Positions 43,382 through 51,885 of a DNA stretch of 64,000 bases are shown in pieces. A model generated the notes under the pieces. That model searched no databases and was not told the origin of the DNA. It was given only the letters and a program-made list of their open reading frames with translations. Source of the stretch: Actinoallomurus soli (GTDB lineage: Bacteria; Actinomycetota; Actinomycetes; Streptosporangiales; Streptosporangiaceae); assembly GCF_024055715.1 (NCBI RefSeq), contig NZ_JAMXMV010000004.1:1-64000 (forward strand), in the 5' to 3' direction. How positions within the stretch are numbered: the first letter of the stretch is position 1; each line of letters starts with the position of its first letter. Position numbers and translations under genes: made by a program.

Positions 43382-44122
43382 GTGCGTTACGAGATCTGCC
43401 TGGAGTCCGCCGACGGCGTCGCGGCCGCAGCGGAGGCCGGCGCGGACCGGGTCGAGCTCTGCGCCGCCCTCCTGGAGGGCGGGATCACGCCGAGCATCGG
43501 GATGGTCGAACAGGCCGTCGCCCTCGCGGCCGGCCGGATCAAGATCCACGTGATCATCCGCCCGCGCGGCGGGGACTTCGTGTACGGCCCGGCCGAGGCC
43601 GCGGCGATGCTGCGCGACATCGAGGCCGTCAAGGCCGCCGGTGTGGACGGCGTCGTCATCGGCGCCCTGACCCCGGACGCGGAGATCGACACCGAGCTGT
43701 GCGCGCGGCTCGTCGAGGCCGCCCGCCCGCTCAGCGTCACCTTCCACCGAGCGTTCGACGTCACCCGCGACCCCGAGGCGGCGTTCGAGGACGTCGTCGG
43801 GCTCGGCGTGGACCGGCTGCTCACCTCCGGCGCGGCCCCCTCGGCCCTGGAGGGCGCGGACCTGATCGCGCGTCTCGTCGCGAAGGCCGCCGGGCGGATC
43901 ATCATCCTGCCGGCCGCCGGCATCAACGAACGCACCGCCGCCCGCGTCCTCGAGCAGACGGGCGCCCAGGAGCTGCACTTCACGGCCTCGGAGGACCGGC
44001 CGTCGTCGTCCCGCTTCACCCGGCCGGGCATCTACATGGGCGGCGCGCTCTACCCGCCGGAGACCGTTCGCTCCGTCACCACCACCGCGCGCGTCCAAAG
44101 CATCATCGCCGCCGTCGGCTGA
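43382..44122 (+). CDS. cutC: CutC family TIM-barrel protein
   Basis: This 246-residue protein has the CutC pattern: ICLESADGVAAAAEAGADRVELCAALLEGGITPS, VIIRPRGGDFVY, GVDGVVIGALTPD, VTFHRAFDVTRDP, RLLTSGAAPSALEG and IILPAAGINERTAARVL. It was named for copper homeostasis, but bacterial CutC proteins in sugar or peptide operons probably have an enzymatic role. The GTG start follows GAAAGGAA. It is the last gene of the ROK operon. Copper function is not supported by the context here. Confidence 0.93.
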   Translation: MRYEICLESADGVAAAAEAGADRVELCAALLEGGITPSIGMVEQAVALAAGRIKIHVIIRPRGGDFVYGPAEAAAMLRDIEAVKAAGVDGVVIGALTPDAEIDTELCARLVEAARPLSVTFHRAFDVTRDPEAAFEDVVGLGVDRLLTSGAAPSALEGADLIARLVAKAAGRIIILPAAGINERTAARVLEQTGAQELHFTASEDRPSSSRFTRPGIYMGGALYPPETVRSVTTTARVQSIIAAVG

Positions 44123-44815: not shown

Positions 44816-44906
44816 ACGCCTGTACTCGACCGGAAACGTGGGCTGGCGACCCTTCCCAGAGCCGCCCGGGCATCGCCCGGGCCGATCGGGAGGACGACAC
44901 ACCGAC

Positions 44907-46220
44907 ATGCCGACCGGATTCGATGCCGGCGACACCGCCTGGCTGCTGACCAGCACCGCACTCGTTCTCATGATGACGCCGGGCCTGGCGCTGTTCTACG
45001 GCGGCATGGTCCGGACCAAGAGCGTGCTCAACATGCTGATGATGAGCTTCGTCTCGATCGCCGTGGTGACCGTCGTCTGGCTGCTCGCCGGCTACACGCT
45101 CGCCTTCGGTCCCGACCTGGGAGGCTGGGGGCTGCTCGGCGGCCTGCGGTACGTCGGCATGCACGGCATCGGGCCGAGGAGTCTCACCGGGCACGTACCG
45201 ACCCTGATCTTCGCCGCGTTCCAACTCGCGTTCGCCGTCATCACGGCCGCGCTGATCAGCGGGGCCATCGCCGATCGGGCCAAGTTCGGCGCGTGGGTGG
45301 TCTTCGTCGCCGCCTGGACGCTGCTGGTCTACGTACCGGTGGCCCACTGGGTCTTCGCGCCCGGCGGCTGGATCCTCACCCGGCTGCACGCGCTGGACTT
45401 CGCCGGGGGCACCGTGGTCGAGGTGAACTGCGGCGCCTCCGGTCTGGCGCTCGCGTTGCTCCTCGGACCGCGCCTCGGCTTCAGGAAGGAGGCCATGCGT
45501 CCGCACAACCTGCCGCTGGTGCTCCTCGGCGCGGGGCTGCTGTGGTTCGGCTGGTTCGGATTCAACGCGGGCTCGGCGATGGGCGCCAACGGCCTGGCGG
45601 CGGCCGCCTTCGTCAACACCCAGGCGGCCGGCTGCACCGGCATGCTGGGCTGGCTGGCGGTGGAGAAGCGCAGGGACGGCCACGCCACCACGCTCGGCGC
45701 CGCCTCCGGCGCGGTCGCCGGCCTGGTCGCCATCACCCCCTCCTGCGGCTCTGTGGGCGTCTTCGGCGCGCTGGTGATCGGCCTGGTGGCCGGTGTGCTG
45801 TGCTCGTACGCGGTGAGCTGGAAGTACCGCTTCGGCTATGACGACTCCCTGGACGTCGTCGGGGTCCACCTGGTCGCGGGCGTCGTCGGCACCGTGCTGA
45901 TCGGCGTCTTCGCCACCGCGGTGATGACCGGGGGCGCCACCGGGCTGCTCTCCGGCGGCGGAGGAGGCCAGCTGCTCAGGCAGGTCACGGCGGTGCTCGT
46001 GGTGGGCGCCTACGCGTTCACCGTGACGTACGGGATCGGGAAGCTGATCGACCGGATCATGGGCTTCCGGGCCTCGGCCCAGGACGAGCAGGCCGGCCTG
46101 GACCTGGCGGTACACGCCGAGAGCGCCTACGACCACGGCGTTCTGGGACACGGCACGACGCAGAACGCCAACCGGCGCCCGGCGACGCATCCGGACCGGA
46201 CCCCGGCCCCCGAGAGCTGA
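44907..46220 (+). CDS. amt: ammonium transporter
   Basis: This 437-residue membrane protein has 11 predicted helices of the Amt/MEP/Rh family. It shows TPGLALFYGGMVRTKSVLNMLMMSF, GAIADRAKFGAW, LDFAGGTVV and DDSLDVVGVHLVAG. The conserved Asp before FAGG is present. The first pore histidine is replaced by Glu172 (GGTVVEVNCG), while the second, His321, is kept. That E-H pair is known from fungal Mep1/Mep3 but is not usual in bacteria. No glnK or glnD gene is adjacent. The ATG lies 13 bases after GGGAGGA. Regulation by GlnR is likely from the upstream box. Confidence 0.93.
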   Translation: MPTGFDAGDTAWLLTSTALVLMMTPGLALFYGGMVRTKSVLNMLMMSFVSIAVVTVVWLLAGYTLAFGPDLGGWGLLGGLRYVGMHGIGPRSLTGHVPTLIFAAFQLAFAVITAALISGAIADRAKFGAWVVFVAAWTLLVYVPVAHWVFAPGGWILTRLHALDFAGGTVVEVNCGASGLALALLLGPRLGFRKEAMRPHNLPLVLLGAGLLWFGWFGFNAGSAMGANGLAAAAFVNTQAAGCTGMLGWLAVEKRRDGHATTLGAASGAVAGLVAITPSCGSVGVFGALVIGLVAGVLCSYAVSWKYRFGYDDSLDVVGVHLVAGVVGTVLIGVFATAVMTGGATGLLSGGGGGQLLRQVTAVLVVGAYAFTVTYGIGKLIDRIMGFRASAQDEQAGLDLAVHAESAYDHGVLGHGTTQNANRRPATHPDRTPAPES

Positions 46221-46368
46221 GCCGTGACCTTCTCCGCCGCCTGAAGCCGCATACGCGACACATGCCCTTCCTGATCACAGGGCGGTCACGAAGTGATTCT
46301 GACGTTGATCAACCCCGTCCGTCAGGCGTTGTCAGGAGACGTGGTCCCTTCCGCAGGCGGGAGCGGTG

Positions 46369-47580
46369 ATGCAGAGGATCATCTCGGTCGTCGCGGCGAT
46401 CGTCGCGTTGGTGTTCGGCGCCCTCCCAGTGCCGGCCGCCTCGGCTCGGCCGGGGGCGGCGCGTCCGGCGACGACGCCGGTCTCGCCGCTGTCGCTGCCG
46501 CGTCCCACGGGGCCGTACCGGATCGGGACGGTCTCGCTGCACCTCGTCGACCCGTCCCGGCGTGACCCCTGGGTGGAGTCGCATCCGGTACGGGAGCTGA
46601 TGGCGCAACTGTGGTACCCGGCCGCCCGGACCGCGGGGCTGCCCCGCGCGCCGTACATGCCGCCCCTCGCCGGAAGGCACCTGGACGCCTTCACCGCGCA
46701 GGCGCTGGGCGCACAGGTGCCGGAGGGGACGTTCCACGGGCTCCGCACACACTCGTTCGAAGGCGCTCCGGTCGCGCGGCCGCCGCGTACGGGATGGCCG
46801 GTCGTCGTCTTCTCCCCCGGTGACGGCATGGACCGGTCCTCACTGACCGGTCTCGCCGAGGACCTGGCGAGCCACGGGTTCGCCGTCGTCGGCGTCGACC
46901 ACACCCACGACGCCGGCGAGGTGGAGTTCCCGGGCGGCCGGCTCGAGGTGGGGGGCGTCATCCCGCCGGGCAAGGCCGACGAGGAGACGCTGGTGCGCGC
47001 CGCCGACGTACGGTTCGTGCTCGACCGGCTCGCCGTGCTCGACGCGGGCGCCGACCCCGACGCCGAGGGGCGGTGGCTCCCCGCCTTCCGGGAGATGCTC
47101 GACCTCACGCGGGTCGGCATGTTCGGTCACTCACACGGGGCCGAGGCCACCGCCGAGACGATGCTGCAGGACCGGCGCGTGATCGCGGGGCTGGGGCTGG
47201 ACGGTGGGGTCAGCGACCGCGTCGCCGCCGCCGGCCTGCCGGCGCCGTACATGGTCATCAGCGGGGCCACCGCCGCGAGCCCGCTGACGGAACGGAACCT
47301 GACCGCCCTCTGGCCGCACATCACGGCCTGGCACCGCTGGCTCCGGTTGCGCGACTCAGGCCACCTCACCTTCACCGACTTCGAGACCTTCGCCGGCGCC
47401 CTCGGGGTGCCGCAGCCCGTACGAGAGCAGCTGTTCGGCACGCTCGTCCCCGAGCGGGCCGTCGCCGTCGGACGGGCGTACGTGGAGGCCTTCTTCATGG
47501 AGCACCTGGATCACCACCACCGCCCGATCCTCGACCGGCCCTCGCCCCGCTACCCGGAGATGACGTTCGAGCCGAGCTGA
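46369..47580 (+). CDS. secreted alpha/beta hydrolase, PAF acetylhydrolase/lipase-like
   Basis: This 403-residue exported hydrolase has a signal peptide (1-27, AVALVFGALPVPAASA). It shows the ELMAQLWYPA strand, the VVVFSPGDGMDRSSL oxyanion region, the nucleophile elbow FGHSHGAEA (Ser255), and candidate Asp and His in GLGLDGG and SGHLTFTDF. The plan matches PAF-acetylhydrolase-like lipases and the related dienelactone-hydrolase type. The ATG at 46369 has GGGAG five bases upstream; a GTG one codon earlier is possible. It stands alone. Confidence 0.85.
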   Translation: MQRIISVVAAIVALVFGALPVPAASARPGAARPATTPVSPLSLPRPTGPYRIGTVSLHLVDPSRRDPWVESHPVRELMAQLWYPAARTAGLPRAPYMPPLAGRHLDAFTAQALGAQVPEGTFHGLRTHSFEGAPVARPPRTGWPVVVFSPGDGMDRSSLTGLAEDLASHGFAVVGVDHTHDAGEVEFPGGRLEVGGVIPPGKADEETLVRAADVRFVLDRLAVLDAGADPDAEGRWLPAFREMLDLTRVGMFGHSHGAEATAETMLQDRRVIAGLGLDGGVSDRVAAAGLPAPYMVISGATAASPLTERNLTALWPHITAWHRWLRLRDSGHLTFTDFETFAGALGVPQPVREQLFGTLVPERAVAVGRAYVEAFFMEHLDHHHRPILDRPSPRYPEMTFEPS

Positions 47581-47943
47581 TCGCCTTCAGGCGGGCCACG
47601 AAAACCGCAACACAAATCGACCCAGATTTCGGATGTCCGTAATTCAACCCCCGGGGATACGCCTTTACCATCTCTTGCCTAGAAGATGGCATTTTTGCTA
47701 CCTTGCCGCTACCTACCTCACTTTCGGATGGCTGGTCGAGTCGATTCCATCGACGCGCCTGTCAGATGTACCGCAGACGCTCATGGCCGGCCCAGTTCAT
47801 CCGAAGGGACCCGCGTATCGCGCCCGCGGTCCATCGATGGAGCGGACCGGTGAAAGCCGTCCGCGACGACGATTGGGAGCACATTGGCGGGAGCGGGGAG
47901 AGCACCGGCCCTGAGGGGTCATTCGCGTGGCAGTCGGCCACTG
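47581..47943. other. spacer with lower GC upstream of the secreted multidomain protein
   Basis: These 363 bases hold no credible gene. From about 47600 to 47760 GC content is clearly lower than in neighbouring genes. A possible intrinsic terminator lies at 47668-47696. The rest is the leader of the 47944 gene, which lacks a good Shine-Dalgarno sequence. Confidence 0.45.
47668..47696 (+). terminator. candidate intrinsic terminator with U run
   Basis: CCATCT (47668-47673) pairs with AGATGG (47684-47689), followed by CATTTTTG. This is one of the few hairpins in the window followed by a T tract. It lies 88 bases past the hydrolase stop. The stem is short. Confidence 0.4.
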
Positions 47944-50900
47944 ATGCGGCGGTCCCGATGGAGCGCCGGCCTGGTGACCGCGATGGTCACCGTGACCGTT
48001 GTAGCGGTGACCGGAAGTGAGCGTGCATCCGCCGGGGAACGATCACCGTCGCGGGATCCGCGCACTGTGGCCTCGCAGACGGCGAAAGCACGCGGCACGA
48101 AAGTCGAAGTGCAGGACGATCGGACGGATAATTCGACCACATGGGCAAACCCGGACGGCACATTCACGATGGAGTCCTTCAGCGGACCTGTCCGGGTGAA
48201 CAAAGATGGCACGTGGCGCTCGATCGATACCTCACTCACGCCGAACAGCGCTGCCACGGAACTACGACCGAAGACCGCCGCAGCCGACATTCAACTGTCG
48301 GACGGCGGCGCCGGCCCATTCGCCACTCTGCAGCGCGCGAATCGGTCGTTCTCCGTCGCGTGGCGCGATTCCCTCCCGAGCCCGCGGGTACAAGGGGACA
48401 CCGCGATTTATGAGGATGTCGTTCCCGACGGCGACCTGGTGGTCAAAGCACTGCCCAACGGCTTCAGCCACTCGCTCGTTCTCCGGAAGCAGCCGAAGCA
48501 GGACCTCGAGATTCCGCTATCGGTCGATACCGAGGGACTGACTCTCGCCGCCTCCAGTGAGCACGGCCTGGATCTGCGCGACTCCTCGGGCCGGCTCGTG
48601 GCATCGGCACCCGAGCCGAGGATGTGGGACTCCGGAACCGATCCGCGCTCCGGCGAGCCGTCGCACCAGGCCGCCGTCGACACCACCATCCAGCAGACCG
48701 CCGACGGTCCGGTGCTGCGACTGAAACCCGACGCGCGGTTCCTCGCCGACCCCGCGGTTCGCTATCCCGTGACGATCGATCCCACCAGCACCCTGACCGT
48801 GCAGACGGACACCTGGGTGCAGACCGACTTCCCCGACTCCCAGCGAGGGTCCACCGAACTCAAGGCGGGAACGTACGACGGCACTCACATCGCGCGCTCG
48901 TACCTGAGGTTCAACCATGTCGATGACCTCCGGGGAACTCAGATCATCGACGCCGATCTCCGGTTGTGGGCCTTCTGGTCTTCTGTCTGCAAAGACCCGA
49001 GCGCCGGTGTCCAGGCCCGCCGGGTCACGTCCACCTGGGATCCCGACACGATCAGGTACGGCAGCGAGCCGAACACCACGACGACGGGGGCCGTGACCAG
49101 CGTCGCCGCGCCCGGTGCCGCGAGTTGTCCCCAGGACTTCATGCACTGGAACGTCGGCACCATCGTCAAGGCGTGGGCGGACGGACAGCCCGACTACGGC
49201 ATCCAGCTTCGCGGCGCGGATGAGAAGGACCCGTCCACCTGGAGGAGGTTCTACTCCTCCAACTATGTGGCCGGGGCTCAGGGGGAGAAGGAACCGGCTC
49301 TGAGCGTCACCTTCAACTACAGGCTGCCGACGCCTACGAATGTCGGTGCCTCACCCAAGGCATCCGACCTGACGACATCGCCGACCGTGGCGTCCACCAG
49401 GCCGACCCTCTCCGCGCAGATCACCGAACCCAACGGCAAGCCGGTCGACTACACATTCGAGGTGGCGAAGTCCGCCGGTCGAACGACGGTGGTGACCGGC
49501 AGCGCGAATGCCGTCGCTTCGGGAGCGACTGCGACATGGCAAGTCCCCGACGGCCGGCTGAAGAACCCCGGGTCGTACATCTTCCGGGTCAGAGCCATGA
49601 GCGCCACCGGCGCCGGCGGCTGGTCGGCGTGGCAGCCGCTGATCACCGACGCGGCTCAGACTCCGCAGTCGCTGGCGACGGGAACCGATGAGTCCGGATC
49701 GACCGTGCTCTCGGGCGTGCTGTCTCGGCCCTCAGGGGCCGAGGTGGGCGCTCATTTCTACCTCTATGACACGAGCGGCGCGGTGATCGGAGGAACGCCG
49801 CTCGGCCAGGGAAGTGTGCAGAGTGGGCAGCGGATGAGTCTGCGGGTTCCGGCGGGGTTGACCAAGCCCGGCCAGTCCTATCGCTGGCAGATGGACGCCT
49901 GCGTGAAGGAGGTCTGCACTCCCAAGACCCCGAGCATCGCCTTCACCGCTCCCCAGCCGAGATCGTCCACCGGAACCCAACGCGTCACCATCGCGAAGAA
50001 CAAGATGACCATCAGGACCGCCCAGTCGGATCCGGCGGCGTGCGGCGGGGCGGCCTGCCCGCTCACCGCGGACGACGCCGTTCGAGTCGGCGGAGCCGGC
50101 ACGGCCCAGCGGGTCACCCACCTGAAGGTCGATCTGGACGCGCTGCCTGCAGGGGCGAGGATCACCGCGGCGAGCCTGAATCTCGGAGCGCCGGACTGCG
50201 GAGCCGGCTGTCCGAGCAGCGGCTCGGTGTCCGGTGAGCAGCCGGAGAGCGACCTCGCGGACAACGCGACAGGCGCCGACGCGGCAGAGGTGGCGGTGAG
50301 GGACCCGGATGCGCCGCCGACGAGCATCGCCGACCCTCAGGTGGACATCACGGGCCTGGCCGGTATCTGGTACCAGGATTCCTCTCAGAACAGCGGGATC
50401 ATCCTCGAAGCCGACGGAAGCGATCTGCCGGTCCTCTCGTATGGGAATGGGTCAAGCTCGATCAACGTGACGATCGACTACCTTCCCCCCACGCCGCCGG
50501 GGAAGGTCTCCAACATCTCCACCCGAGGCGGCGACGGCGGGGTACTGGTCTCCTGGGCCGCCCCTCAGGACGTCGGCGCGAGCACCTCCCCGGGCACAGG
50601 CGCCGACGACGACCCGATGGCCTCACCCATCAGTTCGTACGACGTCCAGGCCCTGGACGGGAACAACAACGTCGTACAGTCCAAGACCGTCGTGAACGAA
50701 GCGACGATCGTCTCCGGACTGGCGAATGGCACGTCCTATCATTTTCAGGTCCGGGCGCACAGCAAGTACGGCGACGGGCCATGGCTGACCACCCCGGCTG
50801 TCGCCCCTGCCGGAATCCCGGGCGACAAGGCGGCCTATGTGGACGCGGTGAAACAGCTGGTACAGGGCCGCGAGGCGATCACGGAAGGCCGCTTCTCCGA

Positions 50901-51885
50901 CGCGGACGCCGTCCTGGCGGCGAGCCCGGACGCCGACTACTTCGGCGCGGCGCTCAAGGCGCAGTCCGCCGACCTGGTCGCCGGCCGTGACGACGCAGCA
51001 CAGGAACAACTCACTCAGGCCGACTCGACGATCACATTCCCGGAGATCTTCGCGAGCTACTCCCCATCGAACGACGCGGTCACCATCCGCGCCGCCTACG
51101 AAGGCCAGGAGGTGTTCGTGAACAACGCGGGCACGGCCGCGGAGAGTAAGGTGACGAACGATTTCTCGAGGGAGAGCGACTTCGTCTTCAACAGGCCATT
51201 GATCAACGCCCAGGGCGACGCCGATGAGCCCGCCCCCGTCCTGGCCTCCGAGACGGACTCGAGCGCGATCGACACTCAAGTCGACGGCGGTGGCGAGATC
51301 AACGCGTTCACCCCCGAACAGCTGACGGCGTCGGTGACTCCTAAGGCCGCCTCCGGTTCCGATCTGGACAAGGCTTCTCTACGAGCGGCGGCGAAGGTGG
51401 ACCATCCGGGAATCGCGAGGTGGGCCGTGAACCACGCCAAGAGCGAAAAAGCAGAGTACAAGTACGACTGCACGAACTTCGTGTCCAAGGCCCTTAACCG
51501 GGGCGGTCACATACCGATGAGAACGGGGTGGTACCGCAGCGACCGTTCCTGGTGGGACAACTGGCTCAACGCCTCCTACCCCTGGGCGGCCGCGGACCAC
51601 CACAAGAAGCACTTCGCGACCGCGTGGGACGGCAAGAAGCCGCGCGTGTACTGGGAACGCAACTACGGCGAAGTCGAACTCGGTGATGCCATCTACTTCG
51701 AACGCCCCGCGGGGACACCCGTGCACATGGCGATCGTCAGCTACAAGGCCGCGTCCAGCATAGGCGGTATCTACTTCGCGCAGCACAACCGCGCCAAAGG
51801 CCATCAGCACTACGACACCTACAAGCCTCTGTCGCTGGTCTACGGGAACTACCGCAACATCGGATTCGGATACATATGGAAGTAA
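47944..51885 (+). CDS. large secreted multidomain protein with C-terminal Cys/His/Asn amidase-like domain (candidate effector)
   Basis: This 1,313-residue exported protein has a signal peptide (about 1-30, VTVTVVAVTGSERASA). A beta-rich N-terminal region (about 40-280) resembles the leader of RHS/DNRLRE-type secreted proteins. A DNRLRE-like domain covers about 283-455 (DTWVQTDFPDSQRGSTELKAG, ARSYLRF) and a second, Cys-containing one about 690-845. A fibronectin type III domain lies at 850-955, followed by a helical linker. The C-terminal 145 residues match the putative amidase (PF12671-like) fold with Cys1176 in YDCTNFVSKAL, His1261 in PVHMAIVS and Asn1282 in FAQHN. A hydrolase at the C-terminal tip of a long secreted scaffold is the plan of polymorphic toxins and of large wall hydrolases. 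The ATG at 47944 is chosen for the signal peptide; it lacks a clear ribosome-binding site. Its 5' third has lower GC than its neighbours. Confidence 0.85.
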   Translation: MRRSRWSAGLVTAMVTVTVVAVTGSERASAGERSPSRDPRTVASQTAKARGTKVEVQDDRTDNSTTWANPDGTFTMESFSGPVRVNKDGTWRSIDTSLTPNSAATELRPKTAAADIQLSDGGAGPFATLQRANRSFSVAWRDSLPSPRVQGDTAIYEDVVPDGDLVVKALPNGFSHSLVLRKQPKQDLEIPLSVDTEGLTLAASSEHGLDLRDSSGRLVASAPEPRMWDSGTDPRSGEPSHQAAVDTTIQQTADGPVLRLKPDARFLADPAVRYPVTIDPTSTLTVQTDTWVQTDFPDSQRGSTELKAGTYDGTHIARSYLRFNHVDDLRGTQIIDADLRLWAFWSSVCKDPSAGVQARRVTSTWDPDTIRYGSEPNTTTTGAVTSVAAPGAASCPQDFMHWNVGTIVKAWADGQPDYGIQLRGADEKDPSTWRRFYSSNYVAGAQGEKEPALSVTFNYRLPTPTNVGASPKASDLTTSPTVASTRPTLSAQITEPNGKPVDYTFEVAKSAGRTTVVTGSANAVASGATATWQVPDGRLKNPGSYIFRVRAMSATGAGGWSAWQPLITDAAQTPQSLATGTDESGSTVLSGVLSRPSGAEVGAHFYLYDTSGAVIGGTPLGQGSVQSGQRMSLRVPAGLTKPGQSYRWQMDACVKEVCTPKTPSIAFTAPQPRSSTGTQRVTIAKNKMTIRTAQSDPAACGGAACPLTADDAVRVGGAGTAQRVTHLKVDLDALPAGARITAASLNLGAPDCGAGCPSSGSVSGEQPESDLADNATGADAAEVAVRDPDAPPTSIADPQVDITGLAGIWYQDSSQNSGIILEADGSDLPVLSYGNGSSSINVTIDYLPPTPPGKVSNISTRGGDGGVLVSWAAPQDVGASTSPGTGADDDPMASPISSYDVQALDGNNNVVQSKTVVNEATIVSGLANGTSYHFQVRAHSKYGDGPWLTTPAVAPAGIPGDKAAYVDAVKQLVQGREAITEGRFSDADAVLAASPDADYFGAALKAQSADLVAGRDDAAQEQLTQADSTITFPEIFASYSPSNDAVTIRAAYEGQEVFVNNAGTAAESKVTNDFSRESDFVFNRPLINAQGDADEPAPVLASETDSSAIDTQVDGGGEINAFTPEQLTASVTPKAASGSDLDKASLRAAAKVDHPGIARWAVNHAKSEKAEYKYDCTNFVSKALNRGGHIPMRTGWYRSDRSWWDNWLNASYPWAAADHHKKHFATAWDGKKPRVYWERNYGEVELGDAIYFERPAGTPVHMAIVSYKAASSIGGIYFAQHNRAKGHQHYDTYKPLSLVYGNYRNIGFGYIWK

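Follow-up and report, generated by a model that had tools for sequence, protein, structure and literature searches.

Analysis of the window, the 64-kb stretch of DNA under study, identified an ammonium transporter (Amt) in which the first of the two pore histidines (the twin-His pair) is replaced by glutamate and the second is kept. We refer to such Glu/His proteins as E-types and to His/His proteins as H-types. Comparison with Amts from other genomes tips the balance modestly towards a scenario in which prokaryotes, actinobacteria foremost, have repeatedly made a second Amt Glu/His whilst keeping a His/His AmtB (11 to 20 H/E changes, some of them reversals), reaching the division of labour that fungi show between Mep1/3 and Mep2. 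Rather than an invariant residue, the first pore position of prokaryotic Amts would then be a functionally meaningful two-state switch (His or Glu).

The gene occupies positions 44907–46220 of the forward strand, where the open reading frame translates from an ATG start into a full-length Amt of 437 aa. An in-frame GTG lies upstream at 44838, and alignments with the nearest relatives begin at the first residue encoded from the ATG. The assignment is supported by profile matches, alignment to PDB chains and fold comparison. The protein spanned the whole of TIGR00836 (profile positions 1–406 of 406; 450.2 bits against a cut-off of 343.3) and scored 404.9 bits for PF00909 (cut-off 23.2), exceeding at full length both curated cut-offs for the Amt/Mep/Rh ammonium transporters. 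An AlphaFold2 model (pLDDT 91.7, pTM 0.89) displayed the Amt fold, matching A. fulgidus Amt-1 (2b2f) with a Z score of 65.4 and an rmsd of 1.2 Å over 391 aligned residues, and GlnK-bound AmtB with a Z score of 64.2. F109 and F219, which match the Phe gate F107/F215 of AmtB named in PMC10794816, were invariant in a 46-row alignment (A1), as were W216 and D164, and the C-terminal tail could be aligned to that of E. coli AmtB. By these measures the protein is a member of the Amt/Mep family and is predicted to move ammonium. The whole fold, the gate, W216, D164, the second pore His and the tail are shared with E. coli AmtB and A. fulgidus Amt-1, but the window protein differs from them in its Glu for the first pore His and in having no adjacent glnK.

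The pore substitution lies in the segment LDFAGGTVVEVNCG, which contains Glu172. Alignment to E. coli AmtB chains was gap-free in this vicinity and matched Glu172 (codon GAG, 45420–45422, + strand, bases read directly) to His168, the first twin-His residue, and His321 (codon CAC, 45867–45869, + strand), which was invariant in A1, to His318, the second. The initial annotation had placed Glu172 at the first position with His321 kept, and this was borne out, with no different His placed in the pore. Its likening of the protein to fungal Mep1 and Mep3, for which the same Glu/His arrangement is reported (PMC9040831, PMC7048316), also held: the pore departs from the twin-His type and follows the Mep1/3 type, with Glu at the first position and the second His kept. 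The resemblance extends to the His/His paralogue alongside, but the residue before the second His is Val320, whereas ScMep1 has Glu directly before its second His as well (PMC9040831). The top scorer among the E. coli AmtB chains listed, 2now, also has Glu at position 168. This engineered H168E protein is a homologue (about 45% identity) whose pore carries Glu at the equivalent place; the window Glu, by contrast, is natural, clade-conserved and perhaps accompanied by linked positions (175, 242). The Glu was kept with a different codon (GAG/GAA, a silent change) in a 94% identical orthologue, and also in relatives of about 70–81% identity, and is therefore not a chance or sequencing event.

Glutamate at this position proved far from odd for a bacterium, contrary to the premise of the initial annotation that bacterial Amts have His there. 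A class sample of 69 Actinomycetes genomes yielded 107 Amt match rows, of which all except two fragments were read, giving 105 genes or pieces. His/His was found in 81, Glu/His in 22 and, in one piece truncated before the second position, Glu, the remaining sequence being a Tyr/Ala outlier. The 23 Glu carriers were spread over 23 of the 66 Amt-bearing genomes, every one of which also carried a His/His Amt, whilst all 34 single-Amt genomes were His/His. In a family sample of 120 genomes, apparently Streptosporangiaceae, E-types occurred in at least 14 genomes among the match rows read. Streptosporangium-like genomes contained a second E-type subgroup (L034–L042, e.g. L035 1001–2209) with short tails of the GSDLQFG or GLDTELRIG type in place of the window protein's longer C-terminal one. 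A very divergent Amt-like sequence (L264, 1510–2754; 23–26% identical) displayed Tyr and Ala at the pore positions.

Mapping the trait onto phylogenies indicated that it has changed many times. In a FastTree tree of 295 Amts (127 E and 168 H, trait column left out), a minimum of 20 H/E changes was needed against 86–104 in 20 label shuffles; the set was E-rich by choice, these counts are of changes and not frequencies, and the minimum number of gains is smaller than the number of changes. Collapsing branches under 90, 95 and 99 left 19, 16 and 13 changes. A quick IQ-TREE tree of 104 representatives likewise required 20, and 16, 16 and 11 after the same collapses, and one His-rooted reconstruction on it comprised 13 changes to Glu and seven back to His. 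The alignment and mapping of H-to-E proposed in the initial annotation confirmed the position of the Glu and gave at least 20 changes (13 after collapse) among the 295 Amts. The window protein fell within a 50-member E-clade of Streptomyces, Kitasatospora, Actinomadura, Nocardia, Mycobacterium and Rhodococcus sequences, with support of 93 in the FastTree tree and 60 for a smaller matching group in the 104-representative tree. Among the matches listed, its nearest kin outside the genus were Streptomyces and Kitasatospora proteins of approximately 80% identity with a PII gene just after. A PII gene followed amt in six of the 45 E-clade members checked, all belonging to Streptomyces, Kitasatospora or family f15, and transfer of amt into the window lineage without glnK is a possible reading of this pattern.

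Whole-gene comparison of the window gene with its 94% orthologue gave a dN/dS of 0.22, indicative of purifying selection. Across 463 aligned Amt stretches, a set that includes duplicates and pattern-picked loci, the first pore place was His 303 times, Glu 159 times and Tyr once, and never Asp or Gln. The path from a His to a Glu codon takes two base changes and runs via an Asp or Gln codon. These data bear on the alternative that Glu is tolerated and functionally equal to His, the second Amt being a spare copy in which the residue swaps by drift. The seven reversals beside 13 forward changes in the reconstruction above would fit such drift, as would the transport still seen for engineered H168E in part of the published tests (PMC9040831, PMC3647058). 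We nevertheless regard it as unlikely, given the lack of Asp or Gln intermediates, the purifying selection, the occurrence of E in none of the 34 class-sample genomes with a single Amt and the 50-member E-clade around the window. The initial annotation had held that its reading would fail were the substitution general and neutral in actinobacterial Amts. It is indeed widespread, as a second-copy class, but the recurrent change, the restriction to His or Glu and the His/His copy that accompanied every E-type of the class sample are evidence against neutrality.

A scan of 335 columns with independent pairs ranked position 175 first for association with Glu. In the window protein this is Cys175 (codon TGC, 45429–45431, + strand), located in the tree-set alignment three residues, or one helix turn, after Glu172. 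Of 16 pairs, 8.2 showed loss of Ala at 175 and 0.2 its gain (p 0.008 uncorrected, non-significant after correction for 335 columns). Within the tree set, Ser or Cys was present in 121 of 127 E-types and Ala in 141 of 168 H-types; Ser is not E-specific, being found in 23 of the 168 H-types, and the window has Cys, not Ser. Column 329 had appeared E-linked under a grouping chosen post hoc and was rejected at p 0.125 in the 335-column scan. A fungal N356/L338 difference, lying equally far beyond the second His, is described in PMC7048316.

Searches of the whole genome matched Amt twice and PII once. The other Amt was found on a separate contig, with His/His at the pore and the PII gene (glnK) directly after it, and was 55–59% identical to the window protein. 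A tblastn search of the 64-kb window with the genome's own PII protein detected no PII gene, and the window gene does not display the arrangement of glnK next to amtB. The absence of an adjacent glnK, remarked on in the initial annotation, is therefore true at the window but not typical of E-types: in the class sample, 13 of 23 E-types (and 59 of 81 H-types) had a PII gene no more than 700 bases downstream, and the nearest Streptomyces and Kitasatospora relatives listed have one too. Judging from its retained C-terminal tail, the window protein could still be closed by the genome's single GlnK.

Pfam matches upstream of amt comprised a CutC family protein (43382–44122, + strand), an M81 peptidase and a ROK regulator, and downstream a PAF-AH-like hydrolase (46366–47580, + strand; PAF-AH_p_II match). 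None of the eight neighbouring proteins scanned was a nitrogen-uptake partner. Of eight loci compared, only that of the 94% relative shared surroundings with the window (43.4–44.8 and 52.5–60 kb); it carried approximately 3 kb extra between the shared upstream stretch and amt and lacked the window's 46.3–52.4 kb. The CutC gene was matched in this relative alone and the hydrolase had a strong match in none of the eight; no operon was found in this comparison. A large ORF (47884–51885), which encodes 1333 aa, matches fn3 and carries a putative amidase domain (Amidase_6) at its C-terminal end, falls within the stretch missing at the same place in the 94% relative. GlnR-type boxes upstream were scored over nine positions against a consensus. 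The window gene scored 7/9, a score equalled by 56 of 255 background tiles (four reached 8), and the genome's own His/His amtB 8/9. Scores of at least 8 were obtained for 42 of 135 E-types and 126 of 215 H-types; these counts are uncorrected for kinship or taxon, and the box was therefore dropped as a line of evidence.

The neighbourhood without a nitrogen-uptake partner would suit an E-type specialised for another job, whether a different amine, ammonium release or sensing, and not for general uptake. Methylammonium transport is reported to be kept in AmtB H168E (PMC9040831, PMC3647058), and in the class sample E-types occurred solely as additional copies, both of which would agree with this. 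The fold and gate residues, however, are those of uptake Amts, and 437 aa is too short for the extra domain of Amt receptor chains (644–661 aa), leaving such specialisation a distinctly unlikely explanation. That E-type subunits work chiefly by joining His/His subunits in mixed trimers and thereby tune the main transporter would accord with the nine of 23 E-bearing class-sample genomes in which E and H genes were clustered in the same orientation (aligned ends 39 to 690 bases apart, with a PII match between them in eight of nine) and with the 14 of 104 E-bearing loci holding both among the matches listed from the wider scan below, but is very improbable for a window copy that stands alone and differs so much from its own AmtB. 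Side-by-side His/His and Glu/His pairs were seen at L195, L212, L229, L233, L234, L242, L243, L245 and L248 (families f5, f12, f13 and f20), and some paired loci had a further PII gene after the E-type.

In preference to these alternatives, we consider it reasonably probable that the window protein mediates inward ammonium transport driven by the membrane potential, and that its affinity is lower and its flux higher than those of the genome's His/His Amt, perhaps with a different pH response as well. This reading draws on the residue identity, fold, conservation, repeated change, His/His Amt in the genome and lack of its own glnK, all read directly from the sequence and its distribution, and for the transport role it extrapolates from published AmtB H168E and Mep studies. 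AmtB H168E is reported to have a Km of 12.9 mM against 0.8 mM and larger currents, with methylammonium but no potassium currents for the single change (PMC9040831). Mep1 is described as electrogenic and Mep2 as electroneutral, and Mep2 H194E displayed Mep1-like pH effects in yeast; in oocytes this variant was unstable and gave no current (PMC7048316). The AmtB kinetics lend weight to the altered rate suggested in the initial annotation and, taken with the Mep1/Mep3-like Glu–His pore, make altered rate or affinity the most likely consequence of Glu172. The acidic group may wet the hydrophobic pore and ease the passage of charge, a mechanism put forward for both AmtB H168E and Mep2 H194E. A second uptake mode would thereby be open to the cell, of use at another pH or when ammonium is not limiting, in a division of labour parallel to that of fungal Mep1/3 beside Mep2. 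Counting against this reading are the mixed published effects of the change, AmtB H168E and H168D having left yeast growth on 1 mM ammonium unrestored at 3 days and weak at 5 (PMC9040831), as opposed to the good growth on low ammonium with an H168 change (Hall and Kustu as cited in PMC3647058). The Val320 where ScMep1 has Glu, the non-significance of the 175 link after correction and three exceptions to the two-copy rule (G196, G197 and G413, described below) also weigh against it.

E-types were also found beyond the actinobacteria, where they are sparse. A Glu-motif scan of public genome contigs returned at least 117 loci; its pattern fixes neighbouring codons, and E-types with other surroundings are therefore missed. 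Among the matches listed, an Amt with Glu was present in at least 104 of the at least 117 loci (second His read in 98, six cut short by the locus end), and 13 had no Amt hit. These E-types came from many actinobacterial genera, Methanobrevibacter, Methanovirga, Methanoregula, Desulfosporosinus, Cyanobium/Synechococcus, Verrucomicrobia, Planctomycetota, proteobacterial MAGs and Sulfurihydrogenibium. Whole-genome searches of 26 genomes from the scan recovered an E-type in 24, of which 22 also had a His/His Amt. The exceptions were a Methanovirga MAG (G196) whose single Amt is an E-type and a Sulfurihydrogenibium draft (G197) with only a fragment beside the E-type; in a methanobacterial genome (G413), one unread match with nine stops accompanied the E-type. 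In class samples, each with some match rows unread, E-types were confined to the seed genome in cyanobacteria (20 genomes, 31 loci read, about ten of 41 match rows unread) and verrucomicrobia (19 genomes, 29 loci read), and were present in the seed and four of 19 others in Methanobacteria (30 loci read), G413 belonging to this last sample.

Glu, present in a number of fungal Amts, is described as the sole natural variant that is common (PMC3647058), and the His pair as widely conserved except in fungal Mep1-like proteins (PMC7048316); the role of the natural Glu in Mep1/3 is said in PMC9040831 to have been unclear before the model put forward there. Our literature search, which covered few subscription papers, found no Glu variant outside fungi, and mention elsewhere is possible. 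The swap has been described so far mainly from fungi, yet is common in actinobacteria with many back-and-forth changes, so that its purpose is now testable; what the first pore His does is still debated. Naturally occurring E/H pairs are numerous, frequently share a genome and in some cases a gene cluster, and offer ready-made comparisons of pore state in bacteria and archaea that lend themselves to expression in standard laboratory strains. Annotation of amtB as a single marker lumps E- and H-types as one function.

The Corynebacterium AmtA/AmtB pair resembles the present case in comprising two Amts in one actinobacterium, one of them with glnK. All 43 Amts read in a Corynebacterium-like genus (of 93 match rows) were His/His, which leaves C. 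glutamicum AmtA unsupported as a characterized bacterial E-type; judging from these sequences, the published AmtA/AmtB difference is probably not the Glu/His one. Two loci in this genus (L361 and L362; G292:C2 and G383:C1) carried two and three His/His amt genes, respectively, within a few kilobases.
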